Origin: Verrucomicrobiales bacterium
Lineage (GTDB): Bacteria > Verrucomicrobiota > Verrucomicrobiia > Limisphaerales > UBA11320
NCBI GenBank assembly: GCA_016793885.1
Contig: JAEUHE010000117.1
Span: forward strand, 1 to 64,000
DNA length: 64,000 nt
Reading direction: 5' to 3'
Shown: positions 11,631 to 19,591 of the stretch, one piece after another
Numbering within the stretch: the stretch's first letter is position 1
Layout of the letters: the number at the start of each line of letters is the position of its first letter
The notes under the pieces: generated by a model
Databases searched by the model: none
Seen by the model: only the letters and a program-made list of their open reading frames with translations
Told to the model about the DNA's origin: nothing
Position numbers and translations under genes: made by a program

Positions 11631-14354
11631 ATGCCTGAATCTCCTTCACCCGTCAGCACGCGCTGCCTTCAATGGCTTTCCGATGCGATTTACTCGCATC
11701 GAAAGGCGTTCCTCTATCCACAGCTTCTGCTCACCGCCCTGTGCCTGTGGTACACCTACGAGAATCTGGAATTCAACACCAGCCGTGACTCCCTGGTCGG
11801 ATCCGACAAGGCCTACCACGAGCTGTTCCGCAAGTTTCGCCGCGAGTTTCCGGTTCAGGACGATCTGGTCGTGGTGGTGGAGAGTGAGAATCTCGAAAAA
11901 AACCGCCAGTTCGTCGAACGACTCGGAGCCTATCTGGAGGCGGAGACGAATCTCGTCACCGGCATCTTCTATCGCCACGACCTAACTATGATGGGGACGA
12001 AAGCGTTGCTCTTCGCTCCCACCAATGACCTTATATCGTTGGGCGATCAGCTGGAAGCGTTTGCCCCCTCGATCCAACAATTCGCCCAAGCCACCAACTT
12101 GGTGGCCCTCTTTGCCGAGGTCAACCGACAGTTCAGAACCGCGAAACGCGACAACGAGGAACAGGGGGAAAAACTGGTCCAAGCCATCCCGGCATTGAGC
12201 CGGATTGTGGCGCTGGCCACCGACAGCTTGCGCCGGGTAGGCACTCCACCTTCCCCAGGGGTGACGGCGCTCTTCGACGGAGGCAGTGACGCGCAGAAGA
12301 AGATGTACATCACCATGGCCGATGGCCATATCTTCCTGCTGGTCGCCAAGGCCAAATCGGACGAGATGACCGGGAAGGCCATCAACAAAATGCGACAGCT
12401 CATCGCCCGGACCCAAATCGAAGTTCCGGGCCTGAACGTCGGGCTCACCGGGGAACCGGTGCTGGAGGTGGACGAAATGCGCCAGTCGCAAGATGACAGC
12501 ACTCTGGCTACCATTGTCGCTCTCATCGCCGTCGCCTTGATCTTCATCTATGGCTATCATGAGACGGGACGGCCGCTCAAAGCCAATCTCTGCCTCCTGG
12601 TGGGACTGGCCTACAGCATCGGCTTCACCACCCTCGCAGTGGGTCACCTGAATATTCTGACCATCACCTTCTTCCCGATCCTGATCGGGCTGGCGATCGA
12701 CTTCGGCGTGCATCTCATCACTCGCTATGAGGAGGAGCTGCGGAAGGGGAAAAGCGAACGGGAAGCGATCGAGAAGGCCATCGTGAATACGGGCGTCGGA
12801 ATTTTCACCGGGGCGCTGACCACCGCAGGCGCCTTCTTCGCCATGGCGTTCACCAATTTTCAAGGCATCCGTGAGATGGGAATCATCTGCGGTGGAGGCA
12901 TGATCGTGAGCCTGATTCCCATGATGACGCTGCTGCCCGTCCTGCTGCTGCGCGGGACGCAGAATCAGATCGATCAGGAGAAAGGCGAGGTCCTGCAGAA
13001 GGAGGAGGCCGCGGGAGTGGATCGTCGCGCAAAACTAGAACAGCTCTGGCTTCGTCATCCCATCCCCGTGACGCTGCTCGTGGCCGCCATCACGGCCTGG
13101 TCCTGGCAGTCGCTCCAGCGCGTCCGGTTTGATTACAACCTCCTGAACATGCAGAGCGAGGGCCTGGCCGCAGTGGTCTATCAGGACAAGCTGATTCAAT
13201 CCTCCACCCGATCCGTGCTCTATGGGGCGGTCGTCGCCGATGATCGCGCCGAGGCCCTGCGTCTCCAGCAGGAGATTGAGAAACTGCCGAGCGTCGGCTC
13301 GGTGGACTCCCTCGTGCCCATGCTGGCGGAAAGCACCGAGCCCAAGATTCCGCTGATCCAGCGCGTGAAGCGACTGCTGGCCCCGATCCAGTTTTCACCC
13401 GCCGACGCGCGTCCGGTGGATCTCATGGCTCTCAACCAAACGCTGTTCGCCCTCCATGGCTATCTCACCCTGGCCATGGACCTGACCGTGAAGGAAAAGC
13501 CGGATCTCCACCAAACACTGAAAGTCCTCCGCAGCGAGATCGGAGATCTGCTGAACGAAATGCGGGCAGGAGAAAAAACCTGGGTGGCCGAGCGCCTGGC
13601 CAGATACCAGCAGGCGCTGTTGAATGACGTGCACCACATGCTGGGCCTGCTGAAGCAGCAATCGACCCAGCCAAATCTCAGCGAGCAAGACATCCCCCAG
13701 GAAATCCGGGAGCGCTTTGTGGGCGTCACCGGCAAATACCTGCTGCAGGTGTATCCCAAAAAGAACATCTGGGAGCGGGCCGCCCAGGAAGAATTCGTGG
13801 CCGAGCTGCGTGGGGTACTGCCCACGGTCACCGGGACACCGGTGCAGCTCCTGGAGTACACGACCCTGTTGAAGGACAGCTTCGTTGAGGCGGCGTACTA
13901 CTCCCTCGCCGCCATCTCGGTGCTGGTGCTGATCCATTTTCGTCGGATCAGCTGTCTCTTATTGGCGCTCGTCCCCGTTTTCTTGGGAGCGATTTGGATG
14001 GGTGGATTGATGGGATACTACGGGATTCCCTTCAACCCAGCCAATGTCATGACTCTGCCCCTCCTGGTGGGTATCGGGGTCACCAACGGCATCCACATAC
14101 TAAATCGCTATGCAGAAGAGAATAATCCAAGCATCTTGGCGCGAAGCACCGGTAAGGCCGTGCTGGTGTCCGGACTCACCACCATTGCCGGCTTCGGAAG
14201 CCTGATCCTCGCAAAACACCGAGGAATCGAGAGCTTGGGAACCATCATGTCCATCGGGGTCGCGACTTGTATGCTGGCGGGACTGACGTTCCTCCCGGCA
14301 CTGCTCAATCTGCTCGAGCGGATGGGCTGGTCGATAAGAAAAAACCCAGTGTGA
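11631..14354 (+). CDS. MMPL/RND superfamily exporter
   Basis: A 907-residue inner-membrane protein with the duplicated RND plan. Helix 1 lies at about 27-44, a periplasmic domain at about 45-285, and five helices at about 288-450 (including ILIGLAIDFGVHLITRYEEE and FTGALTTAGAFFAMAF). A second half has a helix near 478-495, a periplasmic domain, and helices at about 765-895 (LLVGIGVTNGIHILNRYAEE). Residues about 600-690 form a predicted coiled coil inserted in the second periplasmic domain. The layout is like HpnN-type hopanoid or lipid exporters, but no hopanoid genes are present. No membrane-fusion partner is adjacent, as usual for MMPL proteins. A lipid substrate is plausible, given the MCE operon that follows. 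Confidence 0.85.
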   Translation: MPESPSPVSTRCLQWLSDAIYSHRKAFLYPQLLLTALCLWYTYENLEFNTSRDSLVGSDKAYHELFRKFRREFPVQDDLVVVVESENLEKNRQFVERLGAYLEAETNLVTGIFYRHDLTMMGTKALLFAPTNDLISLGDQLEAFAPSIQQFAQATNLVALFAEVNRQFRTAKRDNEEQGEKLVQAIPALSRIVALATDSLRRVGTPPSPGVTALFDGGSDAQKKMYITMADGHIFLLVAKAKSDEMTGKAINKMRQLIARTQIEVPGLNVGLTGEPVLEVDEMRQSQDDSTLATIVALIAVALIFIYGYHETGRPLKANLCLLVGLAYSIGFTTLAVGHLNILTITFFPILIGLAIDFGVHLITRYEEELRKGKSEREAIEKAIVNTGVGIFTGALTTAGAFFAMAFTNFQGIREMGIICGGGMIVSLIPMMTLLPVLLLRGTQNQIDQEKGEVLQKEEAAGVDRRAKLEQLWLRHPIPVTLLVAAITAWSWQSLQRVRFDYNLLNMQSEGLAAVVYQDKLIQSSTRSVLYGAVVADDRAEALRLQQEIEKLPSVGSVDSLVPMLAESTEPKIPLIQRVKRLLAPIQFSPADARPVDLMALNQTLFALHGYLTLAMDLTVKEKPDLHQTLKVLRSEIGDLLNEMRAGEKTWVAERLARYQQALLNDVHHMLGLLKQQSTQPNLSEQDIPQEIRERFVGVTGKYLLQVYPKKNIWERAAQEEFVAELRGVLPTVTGTPVQLLEYTTLLKDSFVEAAYYSLAAISVLVLIHFRRISCLLLALVPVFLGAIWMGGLMGYYGIPFNPANVMTLPLLVGIGVTNGIHILNRYAEENNPSILARSTGKAVLVSGLTTIAGFGSLILAKHRGIESLGTIMSIGVATCMLAGLTFLPALLNLLERMGWSIRKNPV

Positions 14355-14550
14355 CAATGCACAGTCAACACTGGGTCGGGAGGAACCGAGGATAAAACCT
14401 CAATCGTGCAAATAAGTTATTGGAATGCCCTTGAAAGTCAATTGCCTTATTCAAATGGATGGGTTTAATCCCATTCGGATCCCCTTTATGCTTATCGGGG
14501 ATTCCAGAAACTCCCGGGCGGCCTTCCGGCCTCGTCTGGGCGACTCTTTC

Positions 14551-16062
14551 ATGTTCAGGCACTTGGCACAAATACTTGTCTTTGCATTACTTACATTCAT
14601 ACCGATCTCGCATCTTGTAACGGCATCGGGGCTTGATGATGGTCCGGACGTTGGACCGGCTTTTGACCGCTTCTCCCTGACGCTGGACGTGGGGGAGCGG
14701 GAGGAGTGGTTGGGGCCCTTGTATTTTGAGGAGCGCAAGGGAGAGACCAGTGGTTGGGGTATCCCGCCGTTCGTGACTTGGACCGAGGACGCCGGCACCG
14801 AGTCGGCCGAACTGGACATTTTGTACCCGGTTCTGACCTACGACCGGTTTGGCAGCGAGACCCGATGGCAGCTGTTCCAGTGGTTGAACTTTTCAGGAAA
14901 CCAAACGATGGAGGGCTCGGACAAGCGACGCTTCAATCTCTTCCCGTTCTACTTCCAACAGCGTTCCAAGGACCCAACCAACAACTACACCGCCTACTTC
15001 CCGTTTTACGGCACGTTCAAGAACCGCTTCTTCCGGGATGAGGTTCATTTTGTGATGCTTCCCCTCTATGTGCAGAGCAAGAAGCGCGGCGTAGTGACGG
15101 ACAACTACCTGTATCCCTTCTTCCATTGGCGGCAAGGTGCGGGGGTGCGCGGATGGCAGGCCTGGCCGCTGGTCGGCAGTGAGCACAAGCCGGTCACCCA
15201 ACGAACCAACATGTGGGACGAACTGGAGGAGATTCCCGGCCACGAAAAGTTCTTCTTCGCCTGGCCCTTTTTTCTCAAGGAGCGCGAACGGATCGGCACC
15301 ACCAATGAACTCCGGAGCCTGGTGCTGGCCCCACTGTTTAGCTCGGAAAGGTCCCCAATGCGCGATTCCTGGGCGTTTCCCTGGCCGATTGGTTTCCGGC
15401 GGACTATCGACCGCGAGAAGGGCTATCGAGAATGGGATGCCCCCTGGCCTTTCGTCGTCTTCGCCCGCGGGGAGGGCAAGCATACCGACCGGGTTTGGCC
15501 GTTGTTCAGTCGATCGCAATCACCCACCCTCCGTACCAGCTTCTACCTCTGGCCATTCTATCGCGGCAGCCACGTCGATGCCCCTCCGTTTGCGCGGGAT
15601 CACCATCGTTTCCTTATCTATGCGTTTTCGGACTTGCGCGAGCGGAACGTGGATACGGGCGAGGAGTTGCATCGCATGAACGCCTGGCCGCTCTTTACCT
15701 ACCGACGCGACTTTCAGGGCCGCCAACGGTTTCAGGCTCTGGCCCTCCTGGAACCCTTGCTCCCGACCAGCAAGAGCATCGAGAGAGATTACTCGCCCGT
15801 GTGGTCTCTCTGGCGATCGGAATCCAACCCTAAAACCGGAGCGCGGAGCGAGTCCTTGCTGTGGAACCTGTACCGTCGGGAAACCACCCCGACCCGCAAA
15901 AAATGCTCGCTCCTGTTCGGTCTCTTCCAGTATCAGACCGGCGCTGATGGTAAGCGAATGAAGCTATTTTACTGCCCGATAGGAAAATCCGGAACCGCGG
16001 TCCAGTCGGCCTCGAAGCCGGATGCGGGCTCCGGCCAACCGTCAACGCCCCCAGCCCCTTGA
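14551..16062 (+). CDS. Secreted aromatic 'WPF' repeat protein leading the MCE operon
   Basis: The start chosen is the ATG at 14551, which gives 503 residues and a signal peptide (HLAQILVFALLTFIPISHL); the frame is open back to 14425. The mature protein is a run of at least ten short units ending in a Trp/Tyr/Phe-Pro-Phe-like motif: LFPFYFQQR, YFPFYGTFK, YPFFHWRQG, WPFFLKERE, FPWPIGFRR, WPFVVFAR, VWPLFSRS, LWPFYRG, AWPLFTYRRD. The alternating aromatic pattern suggests a repeated beta structure, perhaps a barrel or propeller on the outer membrane. It ends 7 bases before the MlaE-like permease, so it is probably part of the lipid-transport operon. Function is unknown; outer-membrane partner is an inference. 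Confidence 0.75.
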   Translation: MFRHLAQILVFALLTFIPISHLVTASGLDDGPDVGPAFDRFSLTLDVGEREEWLGPLYFEERKGETSGWGIPPFVTWTEDAGTESAELDILYPVLTYDRFGSETRWQLFQWLNFSGNQTMEGSDKRRFNLFPFYFQQRSKDPTNNYTAYFPFYGTFKNRFFRDEVHFVMLPLYVQSKKRGVVTDNYLYPFFHWRQGAGVRGWQAWPLVGSEHKPVTQRTNMWDELEEIPGHEKFFFAWPFFLKERERIGTTNELRSLVLAPLFSSERSPMRDSWAFPWPIGFRRTIDREKGYREWDAPWPFVVFARGEGKHTDRVWPLFSRSQSPTLRTSFYLWPFYRGSHVDAPPFARDHHRFLIYAFSDLRERNVDTGEELHRMNAWPLFTYRRDFQGRQRFQALALLEPLLPTSKSIERDYSPVWSLWRSESNPKTGARSESLLWNLYRRETTPTRKKCSLLFGLFQYQTGADGKRMKLFYCPIGKSGTAVQSASKPDAGSGQPSTPPAP

Positions 16063-16069
16063 TCGACAC

Positions 16070-16819
16070 ATGTTTCAGAACATAGGCGAAATCATCCTGA
16101 TGCTGGGCCGGACCATCGCCGCCCTGCCCAACTCGTTCCGCCAGAGGCGTAAGATTCTCGAACAGCTCTTTGAGATCGGCAACTGCAGCCTGCTCATGGC
16201 GTGCGTGATTTCGCTGTTCATTGGCGGGGTCGTGGCGCTGCAAAGCGGGCCCGTTCTGGCCGAGCGTGGGTTGGCGTCGGCCTTGGGCGGTTTGGTGGGG
16301 ATCTCCCTGGCCAAAGAACTGAGCCCGGTCATGATGGCCGTCTTGATCGCCGGCCGAATCGGCTCGGCCATGGCGGCGGAGATCGGTTCGATGCAGGTCT
16401 ACCAGGAGATCGATGCGCTGCGCACCATGAACATCAATCCGATTCACTACCTGGTGCTGCCCCGGATGGTGGCCATCTGCATCGCCCTGCCTCTGCTGGT
16501 GCTCTTCTCCATGCTGGTGGGCTGGTTTGGCGGCGCGTTCGTCTCCGTGGTCAACCACCAGATTGGCATCACTTTTCAGACCTTCCTCGGAAACCTCAAG
16601 GATGTCGTCGACTTCAAGGACATCATGAATGGGTTGGTCAAGAGCCTCGTGTTCGCTTTTATGATCGGCACGGTCTCCTGCCACCAGGGACTCACCACCA
16701 TCGGCGGCCCGCGGGGCATCGGCCGCTCCGTGACCAAGGCCGTGGTCAACTCCATCGTGATGATTCTGATCGCGGATTACTACCTCACCCGCTTCCTGAT
16801 CACTTTCGACTATGACTGA
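16070..16819 (+). CDS. mlaE: MlaE-like ABC lipid transporter permease
   Basis: A 249-residue permease of the MlaE/YrbE family, which forms the inner-membrane core of MCE phospholipid transporters. Starting at ATG 16070 it has an N-terminal amphipathic helix, then membrane helices including SLLMACVISLFIGGVVALQ. The conserved family stretch reads KELSPVMMAVLIAGRIGSA (about 82-100), with EIDALRTMNINPIHYLVLPR following. The frame is open upstream to 16022, but that would overlap the preceding gene. It overlaps the ATPase gene by 8 bases, which indicates translational coupling. Confidence 0.92.
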   Translation: MFQNIGEIILMLGRTIAALPNSFRQRRKILEQLFEIGNCSLLMACVISLFIGGVVALQSGPVLAERGLASALGGLVGISLAKELSPVMMAVLIAGRIGSAMAAEIGSMQVYQEIDALRTMNINPIHYLVLPRMVAICIALPLLVLFSMLVGWFGGAFVSVVNHQIGITFQTFLGNLKDVVDFKDIMNGLVKSLVFAFMIGTVSCHQGLTTIGGPRGIGRSVTKAVVNSIVMILIADYYLTRFLITFDYD

Positions 16820-17573
16820 GCCGGCCACTCATAGCATCAATGTGAGCGTTCGCGGGCTCCGGAAGAGCTACCACGAGCAGCCGGTGCTCAAAGGCATCGA
16901 CCTCAGCGTGGAACGCGGCGAGATCTTCGTGATCATGGGCCCCAGCGGCAGCGGCAAAAGCGTCCTGCTCAAGCATATCATCGGCCTGGAAACTCCGGAC
17001 GAGGGGGAGATTTTGCTGGAAAACCAGTCCATCCTCCATACGGATGTCGCGCAGCGCTACCGGCTCGCGATGGTGTTTCAATCGGGAGCACTGCTGAGTT
17101 CATTGACCGTCGCCGAGAACGTCGGGCTCTACCTCGCCGAGCACCGGCTGAAGAAACCGGCGGAGATCGACAAGATTGTCACGGAGAAGCTCGAGTTCCT
17201 CGGGCTCAAGGGCGTCAAGAATAAGATGCCCTCGGAACTCTCCGGAGGGATGAAAAAGCGCGTGGCCATCGCCCGCGCGCTGGTGATCGATCCCCAACTC
17301 ATCCTCTACGATGAGCCCACCAGCGAGCTCGATCCGCTGATGACCATCACCATTGGGGAGGAGATCCTGGCTCTCCAAGAACGCATTCACGTGACCTCCC
17401 TAGTGGTTACCCACGACCGCGACCTCGCGTTCGGAGTGGCCGACCGCATGGCGATCATGTCCGAGGGCGAGATCCTGTTCGTCGGCACCCCTGCCGAAGT
17501 GCGCCGGAGCGATCATCCCTTTATCCGCAAATTCCTAACCGCTGACTTTAAGTTTCAACCAAAAGAAGACTGA
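16812..17573 (+). CDS. mlaF: MlaF-like ABC transporter ATPase
   Basis: A 253-residue ATPase. Walker A is GPSGSGKSV (about 44-52), the Q-loop region is MVFQSGALLSSLTV (the family's typical SGALF/L sequence), the signature is LSGGMKKRVAIARAL, and Walker B is LILYDEPTSELDP. The Ser-Glu pair replaces the more common Ser/Ala-Gly before LDP, a small family variation. It powers lipid movement through the MlaE permease, and MlaD would be the substrate-binding hexamer. Its gene overlaps mlaE and ends two bases before mlaD. Confidence 0.93.
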   Translation: MTEPATHSINVSVRGLRKSYHEQPVLKGIDLSVERGEIFVIMGPSGSGKSVLLKHIIGLETPDEGEILLENQSILHTDVAQRYRLAMVFQSGALLSSLTVAENVGLYLAEHRLKKPAEIDKIVTEKLEFLGLKGVKNKMPSELSGGMKKRVAIARALVIDPQLILYDEPTSELDPLMTITIGEEILALQERIHVTSLVVTHDRDLAFGVADRMAIMSEGEILFVGTPAEVRRSDHPFIRKFLTADFKFQPKED

Positions 17574-17575
17574 CC

Positions 17576-18553
17576 ATGAAAAACACACTGGAAACCCGGC
17601 TGGGGATTTTCTTTGCGTTCGCGCTGATCGCGGGCGTGATCATTCTCGAACTCATCGGCGCCGCCGACTTTTTCAAAAAGGGCTACCATATCCATGCAAG
17701 CTTCAAGAACGCCCAGGAGCTTCGCAAAGGCGATGCGGTCAAGATGGCGGGCGTCGAGGTGGGCAAGGTGGATTCCATCGATCTGACCAACGGCTTTGCG
17801 CGCGTCACGATGAAAATCACCCAGCCAGACGCCGAGATCAAAACCGACAGCAAGGCGGCCATCAAGTTCACCGGCCTCATGGGACAGAATTTCGTGTCCA
17901 TTGAGTTCGGCTCCCCGACCAACAGCCTGCGCGCCCAGGAAGGCTTTTCTCTCACCACTTACGAACAGGCCGACCTGAGCACTCTCATGGTTAAGCTGGA
18001 GAGCGTGGCGTCCGGAGTGGAGGGCCTTACCAAGAGCTTCAGCACCGAGAATATCAGCGGACTCCTGGGACCTCTCACCGACTTCATGAAGAACAACAAC
18101 GAGCGTCTCACCGCGATCCTGTCCAACTTCCGAACCGTATCCGATAACCTCGCGACCGGCAAAGGAACCCTGGGCAAGCTCATCAATGACGACTCGCTGT
18201 TCACCACCGCCATGAGCGCGGTCGGAAAACTCGATTCGACGATCGGCGACGTCAAACTGCTGATCAGCGACGCCCAAAAATCGGTGTCGAATCTGAATAG
18301 CGGGCAGGGAACGCTGGGATTGCTCATGAAGGATGAGGCGCTGTATCGCGAAACCACCACCGCCATGAGCAACCTCAAGGAGATCATGGAAAAGATCAAC
18401 CGGGGTCAAGGGTCGGTCGGCAAACTGGTGAACGACGAAAGCTTCTTTAAGAATATTAAGCTCACCTTGCAGAAAGTGGAAAAAGCCACCGAAGGCCTTG
18501 AAGATCAAGGGCCGCTGAGCGTCCTAGGCATTGCTGTCAACAAACTGTTCTAG
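17576..18553 (+). CDS. mlaD: MlaD-like MCE-domain lipid-binding protein
   Basis: A 325-residue protein with one N-terminal membrane helix (about 10-30, IFFAFALIAGVIILELIG). A single MCE domain spans about 38-125 (ELRKGDAVKMAGVEVGKV, then IKFTGLMGQNFVSIEFG). A long helical C-terminus carries three repeats of the form GTLGKLINDDSLF, GTLGLLMKDEALY and GSVGKLVNDESFF. E. coli MlaD is much shorter (about 183 residues), so this resembles the longer helical-tail MCE proteins that may form a periplasmic tube. Last gene of the operon; accA follows after 60 bases. No MlaC or MlaB is present in the cluster. Confidence 0.92.
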   Translation: MKNTLETRLGIFFAFALIAGVIILELIGAADFFKKGYHIHASFKNAQELRKGDAVKMAGVEVGKVDSIDLTNGFARVTMKITQPDAEIKTDSKAAIKFTGLMGQNFVSIEFGSPTNSLRAQEGFSLTTYEQADLSTLMVKLESVASGVEGLTKSFSTENISGLLGPLTDFMKNNNERLTAILSNFRTVSDNLATGKGTLGKLINDDSLFTTAMSAVGKLDSTIGDVKLLISDAQKSVSNLNSGQGTLGLLMKDEALYRETTTAMSNLKEIMEKINRGQGSVGKLVNDESFFKNIKLTLQKVEKATEGLEDQGPLSVLGIAVNKLF

Positions 18554-18613: not shown

Positions 18614-19591
18614 ATGAAACATCAGCTGGATTTCGAGAAGCCGATCTTCGAGCTCCAACGGAAGCTCGAGGAGCTGAAGAAGCATCCGGAGACCCATTCC
18701 TTGGGAATCAGCTTCGAAGAAGAGATCCGCCAAATCGAGGCCAAGATCGTCGAGACCCGGAAGCAGATCTACTCCAACCTGACCCCTTGGCAACGTGTGC
18801 AGCTGGCGCGACATCCGCGACGCCCGTACACCATGGACTACCTCAAGACGGTCTTTTCCGACTTTCATGAGCTTCATGGGGACCGGCTTTACGCAGACGA
18901 CCAGGCCGTCGTCGGCGGGTTTGCCCGCTTGGGTGAGACCAAGGTCATGGTCATCGGCACGCAAAAAGGGCGGGACACCAAGGAAAACATCCGTAGAAAC
19001 TTTGGCTCCGCGCATCCCGAGGGCTACCGCAAGGCGCTTCGGCTCATGCGAATGGCGGATAAATTTGGATTGCCCATCATCAGCCTGATCGACACCGCCG
19101 GGGCTTACCCGGGCATCGGCGCTGAGGAGCGTCACATCGCCGAAGCCATCGCGGTGAATCTCCGCGAAATGATGCTCCTTCAGGTACCGATCATCGCGGT
19201 CGTCATCGGCGAAGGCGGATCGGGAGGCGCGCTGGGAATCGGAGTCGCCGAGCGGGTGCTGATTCTCGAAAATGCCTACTACTCGGTGATCAGTCCGGAA
19301 GGCTGCGCGGCCATCCTCTGGAAGGATCGGGCGGCGACGGCCAAAGCTGCCGCCGCGCTCCGCATCACAGCCAAGGATCTCCTGGAACTCGGGCTGGTCG
19401 ACGGCATCATCGCCGAGCCTCTGGGGGGCGCACACAACGACGCTGCGGGCACGGCAGAAACCATGAAGCATCACCTGACTAAAATCCTGGGTGAACTTCA
19501 GGCCCTGAGCATTCCCGATCGACTGCAACAGCGTTACGCCAAGTTCCGCGGCTTTGGCAAGGTCCTGGAGAAGCAACCCTCGGCCGCCTAA
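18614..19591 (+). CDS. accA: Acetyl-CoA carboxylase carboxyltransferase subunit alpha
   Basis: A 325-residue protein matching AccA throughout: N-terminal helical segment LDFEKPIFELQRKLEEL, then RHPRRPYTMDYL, the crotonase-fold core FHELHGDRLYADDQAV, and the active-site glycine stretches GAYPGIGAEERH and GEGGSGGALGIG. With the beta subunit it transfers carboxyl from biotin to acetyl-CoA, the first step of fatty-acid synthesis. Length equals the E. coli enzyme (about 319). accD is not nearby. The start follows directly after a short palindrome (ACCAACGGACGTTGGT), with a 60-base gap from mlaD. Confidence 0.97.
   Translation: MKHQLDFEKPIFELQRKLEELKKHPETHSLGISFEEEIRQIEAKIVETRKQIYSNLTPWQRVQLARHPRRPYTMDYLKTVFSDFHELHGDRLYADDQAVVGGFARLGETKVMVIGTQKGRDTKENIRRNFGSAHPEGYRKALRLMRMADKFGLPIISLIDTAGAYPGIGAEERHIAEAIAVNLREMMLLQVPIIAVVIGEGGSGGALGIGVAERVLILENAYYSVISPEGCAAILWKDRAATAKAAAALRITAKDLLELGLVDGIIAEPLGGAHNDAAGTAETMKHHLTKILGELQALSIPDRLQQRYAKFRGFGKVLEKQPSAA

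Follow-up and report, generated by a model that had tools for sequence, protein, structure and literature searches.

An exported repeat protein encoded with mlaEFD is a candidate outer-membrane-side partner of a variant MCE transporter in Verrucomicrobiota

In Escherichia coli, the MlaFEDB-MlaC-MlaA system has the permease MlaE, the ATPase MlaF and the MCE-domain protein MlaD encoded within one operon. In chloroplasts, the MCE ABC transporter TGD1/2/3 has a barrel partner in the outer envelope, TGD4. E. coli PqiABC joins a periplasm-spanning MCE protein to a separately encoded envelope partner, the outer-membrane lipoprotein PqiC (PMC10897342). The minimal MlaEFD system of Veillonella parvula has an elongated helical MlaD that carries its own ten-strand outer-membrane barrel, and the operon is without MlaA and MlaC (PMC10665443). 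This C-terminal barrel of MlaD is reported to be completely absent in PVC bacteria, in which, according to the same study, unidentified proteins may help (PMC10665443, 2023).

We analyzed a stretch of 64,000 nucleotides (the window) in which mlaE, mlaF and mlaD are preceded by a gene for an exported protein rich in Trp-Pro-Phe repeats, here called WPF (Table 1). The gene products are those of an MlaEFD-type MCE ABC transporter: an MlaE permease, an adjacent ABC ATPase and an MCE-domain MlaD, whose N-terminus is hydrophobic as judged by eye, consistent with a membrane anchor. The reading frames of mlaE and mlaF overlap. A preliminary description had placed a secreted Trp-Pro-Phe repeat protein 7 bases before mlaE, and the coordinates bear this out, since the WPF stop codon ends at 16062 and the ATG of mlaE is at 16070. 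Its order of mlaE, mlaF and a long-tailed mlaD likewise held, with Pfam matches to the three genes and three repeats in the MlaD tail starting at residues 195, 243 and 277. It had also reported that MlaC and MlaB were missing. We found neither mlaC nor a gene for MlaB (STAS) within the operon, and a search with PF05494, in which the E. coli control was matched, gave no MlaC in the window's genome (95.7% complete). There is no MlaA gene within the operon either; the single MlaA domain in this genome is on another contig, in a stand-alone protein of 652 aa. PF03886 (PqiC/ABC_trans_aux) had no match in the genome.

Table 1. Features of the WPF-mlaEFD region and its neighbors (coordinates are positions in the window).
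Feature	Coordinates	Strand	Evidence or remarks
HpnN-like RND/MMPL lipid transporter, upstream of WPF	11631..14354	+	TIGR03480, 583 bits (cut-off 752)
WPF gene	14551..16062	+	503 aa, exported; hairpin repeats of ~20 residues with W-P-[LF]-[YF] turns; family without known relative
WPF N-terminal signal-like hydrophobic helix	14551..14625	+	helix 2-24 in predicted models
mlaE, MCE-type ABC permease	16070..16819	+	PF02405, E 4.8e-73; TIGR00056 above cut-off
mlaF-like ABC ATPase	16812..17573	+	PF00005, E 5.9e-35; NCBIfam MlaF model matched under cut-off
mlaD, MCE domain and long helical tail	17576..18553	+	325 aa; PF02470 at residues 35-112, E 3.1e-20
MlaD tail repeats, three GxG[TS]xGxLxxDexLF	18158..18448	+	residues 195-209, 243-257, 277-291
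MlaD C-terminal tip (EDQGPLSVLGIAVNKLF)	18500..18550	+	WPF-system signature, from family comparison
accA	18614..19591	+	after mlaD

The open reading frame of WPF has an alternative earlier start at 14425. We took 14551 as the start because it results in a signal-like N-terminus. The gene set in Table 1 extends beyond the coordinates of the preliminary description because a conserved HpnN-like gene lies directly upstream. In the window's order this gene precedes WPF at 18 of the 20 loci examined, and the linkage was observed only in that order. It suggests that a second lipid route may be co-regulated with the operon there.

Compared to E. coli Mla, the WPF operon is without MlaA, its genome is without a match to MlaC, and the WPF gene comes first. 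The MlaD of the window also has a hydrophobic tip and is longer than the E. coli protein (183 aa). The WPF operon shares with V. parvula the minimal MlaEFD, the elongated MlaD and the lack of MlaA and MlaC, but its MlaD ends in a hydrophobic peptide and not in a barrel, and a separate WPF protein is present. The arrangement is like that of PqiABC and of TGD1/2/3-TGD4 in that an MCE system is accompanied by a separately encoded protein; TGD4 is a barrel, whereas WPF is predicted to form a ribbon of short strands. MlaEFD itself, and the trans-envelope MlaD from Veillonella, are already known. An exported WPF-like protein beside MCE genes, the exchange of WPF for mlaC-mlaA and the signature at the tip of MlaD are undescribed in the open-licence PMC literature searched.

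WPF is present in one copy in the window's own genome. The preliminary description had counted about ten Trp/Tyr-Pro-Phe units. There are indeed ten strict [WYF]P[FLWY] motifs, compared to 1.66 expected from shuffles of the protein's own composition (0 of 5000 shuffles attained ten). The repeat itself is more extensive, each unit being a hairpin about 20 residues long with an invariant proline. A hydrophobic run close to the N-terminus was found in 119 of 126 WPF homologues. A lipobox-like motif was found in 19 of the 126 (roughly 15%); most homologues do not have one. Searches with the single sequence found no relative in Pfam, NCBIfam, PHROGs or PDB sequences, and a profile of 44 family members found none in the PDB. 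When all 44 members were scanned against Pfam there was no match, including to MlaA (PF04333) and PqiC/ABC_trans_aux (PF03886). WPF appears to represent a protein family not described before, and the fold predicted for it is unusual.

A single search with the WPF protein showed that 157 of the 388 phylum genomes have a homologue, as do 88 of the 97 in the window's order. We examined 80 WPF loci in context. In 66 of these the next gene downstream, in the same orientation, is mlaE, and in a further two the downstream mlaE was cut by the contig end. Setting aside two loci that end at a contig end leaves 78 informative loci, in 68 of which WPF is immediately upstream of mlaEFD. The median gap between WPF and mlaE was 1 nt across dozens of families, and many of the genes overlap by 4 nt. 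All 20 loci examined from the window's order had the order WPF-mlaE-mlaF. In a second, named set (records titled Verrucomicrobia, Kiritimatiellae or Lentisphaerae, mainly the latter two types, and partially overlapping the first set), mlaE was downstream of WPF in 43 of the 43 loci with enough contig. The coupling of WPF to MlaEFD is therefore well supported. In the main family, homologues are not scattered away from mlaEFD, and the ten unlinked loci among the 78 are nearly all in genomes with a tipped MlaD. Distant homologues of 600-1000 aa stand alone, apart from mlaEFD, in some genomes, and at least two of these long proteins have a lipobox-like N-terminus. Because these relatives stand alone, the WPF fold is wider than the Mla system.

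Genomes of the phylum often have two or three copies of MlaE; in the window's genome there are three mlaE/mlaD loci. None of the non-WPF mlaE paralogue loci that we read in context had a WPF homologue, which indicates that WPF is tied to one particular MCE system and not to MCE genes generally. One type of non-WPF locus has an extended MlaE of about 380 aa. In at least one such locus the downstream gene is lipoprotein-like and resembles ABC_trans_aux/PqiC, with a PF03886 match (E 1.5e-5) just below the cut-off. WPF differs from PqiC in having no PF03886 match, and the PF03886-like gene of the phylum adjoins a different mlaE paralogue.

The distribution of WPF was compared with that of MlaA. 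Of the same 388 genomes, 153 had MlaA (PF04333), and the two occurred together in 18, compared to 62 expected (Fisher p 4e-22). The avoidance was also found in coarser units (p 4e-17 by genus and 1e-7 by family). These counts are shaped by ancestry and are not independent, so that the fairest test is the permutation of WPF within families (p 3.5e-4), which rests largely on one family, f6. In f6, MlaA was present in 1 of 26 genomes with WPF and in 9 of 10 genomes without it. We read the WPF-minus operons of f6 and of two further families (f3 and f21) in full, and found the order mlaE-mlaF-mlaD-mlaC-mlaA; the MlaD of these operons has about 150-180 aa. MlaC in the mlaC-mlaA operons was confirmed with PF05494 (E 1e-27 to 9e-46). 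One genome of another family (G101, f40) has both kinds of operon, the WPF type and, as its second operon, mlaE-mlaF-mlaD-mlaC-mlaA with a short MlaD. The 18 genomes with both WPF and MlaA include the window's own.

The MlaD proteins of WPF operons have a distinctive end. In the window, the tail that follows the MCE domain has about 200 residues and three repeats, and its helicity is deduced from the sequence. Only about 35 residues lie beyond the third repeat, the final 17 of which are the tip. This is too few for a multi-strand barrel at the C-terminus of MlaD. A tip was present at the very C-terminus of all 64 complete WPF-linked MlaD proteins, the last residue being F in 53 and L in 11. 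The mean hydropathy of their last 14 residues was +1.37, compared to -0.76 for the 26 residues before. Most families share the consensus RETSPITTFSSIFFGAF, and the class to which the window belongs has a DQGPITAVGVAANALF-like one; the proline of the tip is conserved in the family alignment. The tip was not found in any of 26 MlaD proteins from non-WPF loci, which included both short canonical and other long forms.

The tip and WPF also go together when their genes are apart. Genomes with an unlinked WPF usually have a tipped MlaD elsewhere; in G090, an exception, the WPF homologue is weak and MlaD with a tip is lacking. Among genomes that had a tipped MlaD and were negative in the single-sequence search, a sensitive search found a divergent WPF directly upstream in six and elsewhere in the genome in four more, one of these being cut at a contig end. 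The sensitive search found no WPF in three genomes with a tipped MlaD (G086, G130 and G133), at least two of which have it at a contig break. One genome (G301) had neither the tip nor WPF. These data bear on the idea that WPF has no link with the transporter, being some other envelope protein whose place beside mlaEFD was passively inherited. The distant long forms and the roughly ten main-family loci away from mla genes speak for such an origin. However, linkage was kept across dozens of families, WPF and the tipped MlaD co-occur even where the genes are separated, and WPF and MlaA exclude each other, making passive inheritance highly improbable.

We used AlphaFold2 to predict the structures of the window's WPF (pLDDT 83, pTM 0.70) and of a homologue from Kiritimatiellia (pLDDT 93.2, pTM 0.82). 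In both models the signal helix leads into about 44 strands. Most of these have 5-8 residues, and a strand together with its turn takes up about 10. WPF is thus predicted to be a single long antiparallel beta ribbon, a meander with one aromatic edge. The best structural matches were free-standing antiparallel sheets, with VIA Z for the two models of 11.6 and 9.4 (CPAP TCP10/G-box), 9.8 and 7.0 (OspA) and 11.0 and 7.9 (ApoB100 belt); MORN was also matched. Because coverage was partial and the rmsd was mostly 7-10 Å, we take these matches to indicate a type of sheet and not a relative of WPF. The three proteins share the extended antiparallel meander with WPF but have no sequence similarity to it, and a common topology is not proof of a common function. 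A beta-propeller, one of the folds that the preliminary description had raised, is not supported: the top Foldseek rows are WD40/YWTD chains with E about 1e-5, but with TM about 0.1 and rmsd >20 Å.

The conserved repeat prolines are in turns on the same side of the ribbon, preceded by F, A, L or W and followed by L, F or Y. Positions -4 to +2 of these WP turns are 66-99% hydrophobic, the proline itself excepted, and D, E, R and G abound in the remaining turns. Mapping the alignment onto the predicted strands gives a ribbon with a hydrophobic edge opposite a polar or charged one; the hydrophobicity of the edge is deduced from the alignment and the secondary structure.

A second fold raised in the preliminary description was an outer-membrane beta-barrel. 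In this case WPF would be a conventional channel, a barrel provided in trans where Veillonella MlaD has one as its own C-terminal part. WPF is all-beta, exported and rich in aromatic residues, there are weak alignments to the walls of porins and LptD (VIA Z 5-8; for the LptD rows, Z 5-7 and rmsd 7-26 Å), and TGD4 is a precedent for an MCE system that has a barrel as its partner. However, the strands of 5-8 residues, with few longer, are too short to span a membrane, for which about 9 or more are needed, and so the barrel is unsupported. In addition, the hydrophobicity of WPF is on one edge and does not alternate along long strands, and the closest folds are free-standing sheets. Coevolution, for which the data are weak (150 sequences, Meff 91), indicated pairing of neighboring strands and gave no signal of closure between the first and last strands. 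A barrel channel is therefore distinctly improbable.

Free-standing beta sheets such as CPAP TCP10/G-box and MORN are known for protein-protein contact. WPF could accordingly help to assemble the MlaD tails in the periplasm, or act as their scaffold or regulator, and not itself handle lipid, for example organizing the bundle of tails or contacting other envelope layers. Single C-terminal strands of some MlaD proteins that lack a barrel were modelled as forming a six-strand mini-barrel (PMC10665443), and the MlaD tips of WPF operons could build their own; by analogy, the tip would be suited to forming a mini-barrel or to docking on WPF. Against a scaffold are the strongly hydrophobic conserved edge and the fact that WPF is swapped for exactly mlaC and mlaA, the lipid-handling genes of the outer-membrane side. 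A role limited to the tails seems rather unlikely.

On balance, WPF is probably a dedicated partner, on the periplasmic or outer-membrane side, of a variant MCE transporter, WPF-MlaEFD, in which it replaces MlaC and MlaA. Support for WPF as the partner of MlaEFD comes from the conserved gene order, the exclusion of MlaA, the swap within one family and the WPF-specific tip of MlaD. The core proposal of the preliminary description, that WPF serves MlaEFD in place of MlaA-MlaC with the MlaD tail as a bridge, is thus strongly supported, apart from the barrel. We infer the following arrangement. MlaE and MlaF form the inner-membrane ABC pump, and MlaD contributes the lipid-handling MCE domain and the tail. 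Six tails, if MlaD is a hexamer by analogy with other MCE proteins, would span the periplasm and end in the hydrophobic tips, which may dock on WPF or insert beside it at the inner face of the outer membrane. The aromatic edge would anchor WPF at the outer membrane, as would a lipid anchor in the members that have a lipobox-like motif, and WPF would contact lipids, passing them to the MlaD conduit or receiving them from it. The lack of a lipobox in most homologues and a fold without transmembrane strands count against an outer-membrane partner. Further points against this reading are the three genomes with a tipped MlaD and no WPF, the converse case of G090, the 18 genomes with both WPF and MlaA, the long stand-alone relatives, and the share of ancestry in the distributions of MlaA and WPF. 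It is possible, though we hold this more tentatively than the partnership, that WPF and the hydrophobic tips of MlaD make up a continuous path for lipids between the membranes that is independent of an MlaC shuttle, of MlaA and of a transmembrane barrel.

MCE transporters are widespread. For bacteria that have neither MlaA and MlaC nor a barrel on MlaD, the WPF family, together with the short tip of MlaD, is a specific candidate for the link to the outer membrane. In many Verrucomicrobia-type bacteria WPF is found in place of MlaC and MlaA, pointing to a different connection between the pump and the outer membrane. The presence of both alternatives within one family, an MlaC-MlaA shuttle or WPF with a long MlaD, is a natural experiment on the design of lipid transport.

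We examined the genes flanking WPF, the gene for the exported Trp-Pro-Phe repeat protein, and the MCE lipid-transporter genes mlaEFD. The HpnN-like gene upstream was kept in 18 of the 20 loci of the window's order, and no link between such a gene and WPF-mlaEFD was seen at the loci examined outside this order. Conservation of the adjacency of mlaD and accA was not seen outside the window at the loci examined in context.

The window's genome and another member of its order carry a second, paralogous mlaEFD (loci L166 and L183), followed by a membrane-protein-like gene. The product of this 3' gene is an uncharacterised protein of 335-345 aa that, judged by eye from its sequence, looks PIN/TRAM (YacL)-like. 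Loci L178 and L214 also hold a gene resembling it. The MlaA-domain protein of the window's genome has a C-terminal part of ~390 aa with a weak likeness to alpha/beta hydrolases (PF12697, E 7e-4), and open frames of similar kind, 600-850 aa long and surrounding an MlaA domain, are common across the phylum.

Four WPF-like proteins of 800-990 aa are encoded in isolation, away from mla genes; those of L306 and L307 have a lipobox-like N-terminus. These long stand-alone proteins belong to a wider WPF superfamily.

Coordinates of the features discussed
Feature	Locus	Coordinates	Remarks
HpnN-like RND transporter	window	11631-14354	directly 5' of WPF-mlaEFD
accA (acetyl-CoA carboxylase alpha)	window	18614-19591	PF03255; 3' of mlaD, same strand
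MlaA domain fused to C-terminal region	L206	5133-7091	own genome, contig C231
Long WPF-like protein	L306	3050-5449	
Long WPF-like protein	L307	3561-6056	
Long WPF-like protein	L308	4397-7198	
Long WPF-like protein	L309	4207-7188	

In two loci of family f27 (L081 and L092), a WPF gene not beside mla genes directly follows a gene that by eye appears glmM-like (phosphoglucosamine mutase). This arrangement is a different yet repeated neighbourhood.
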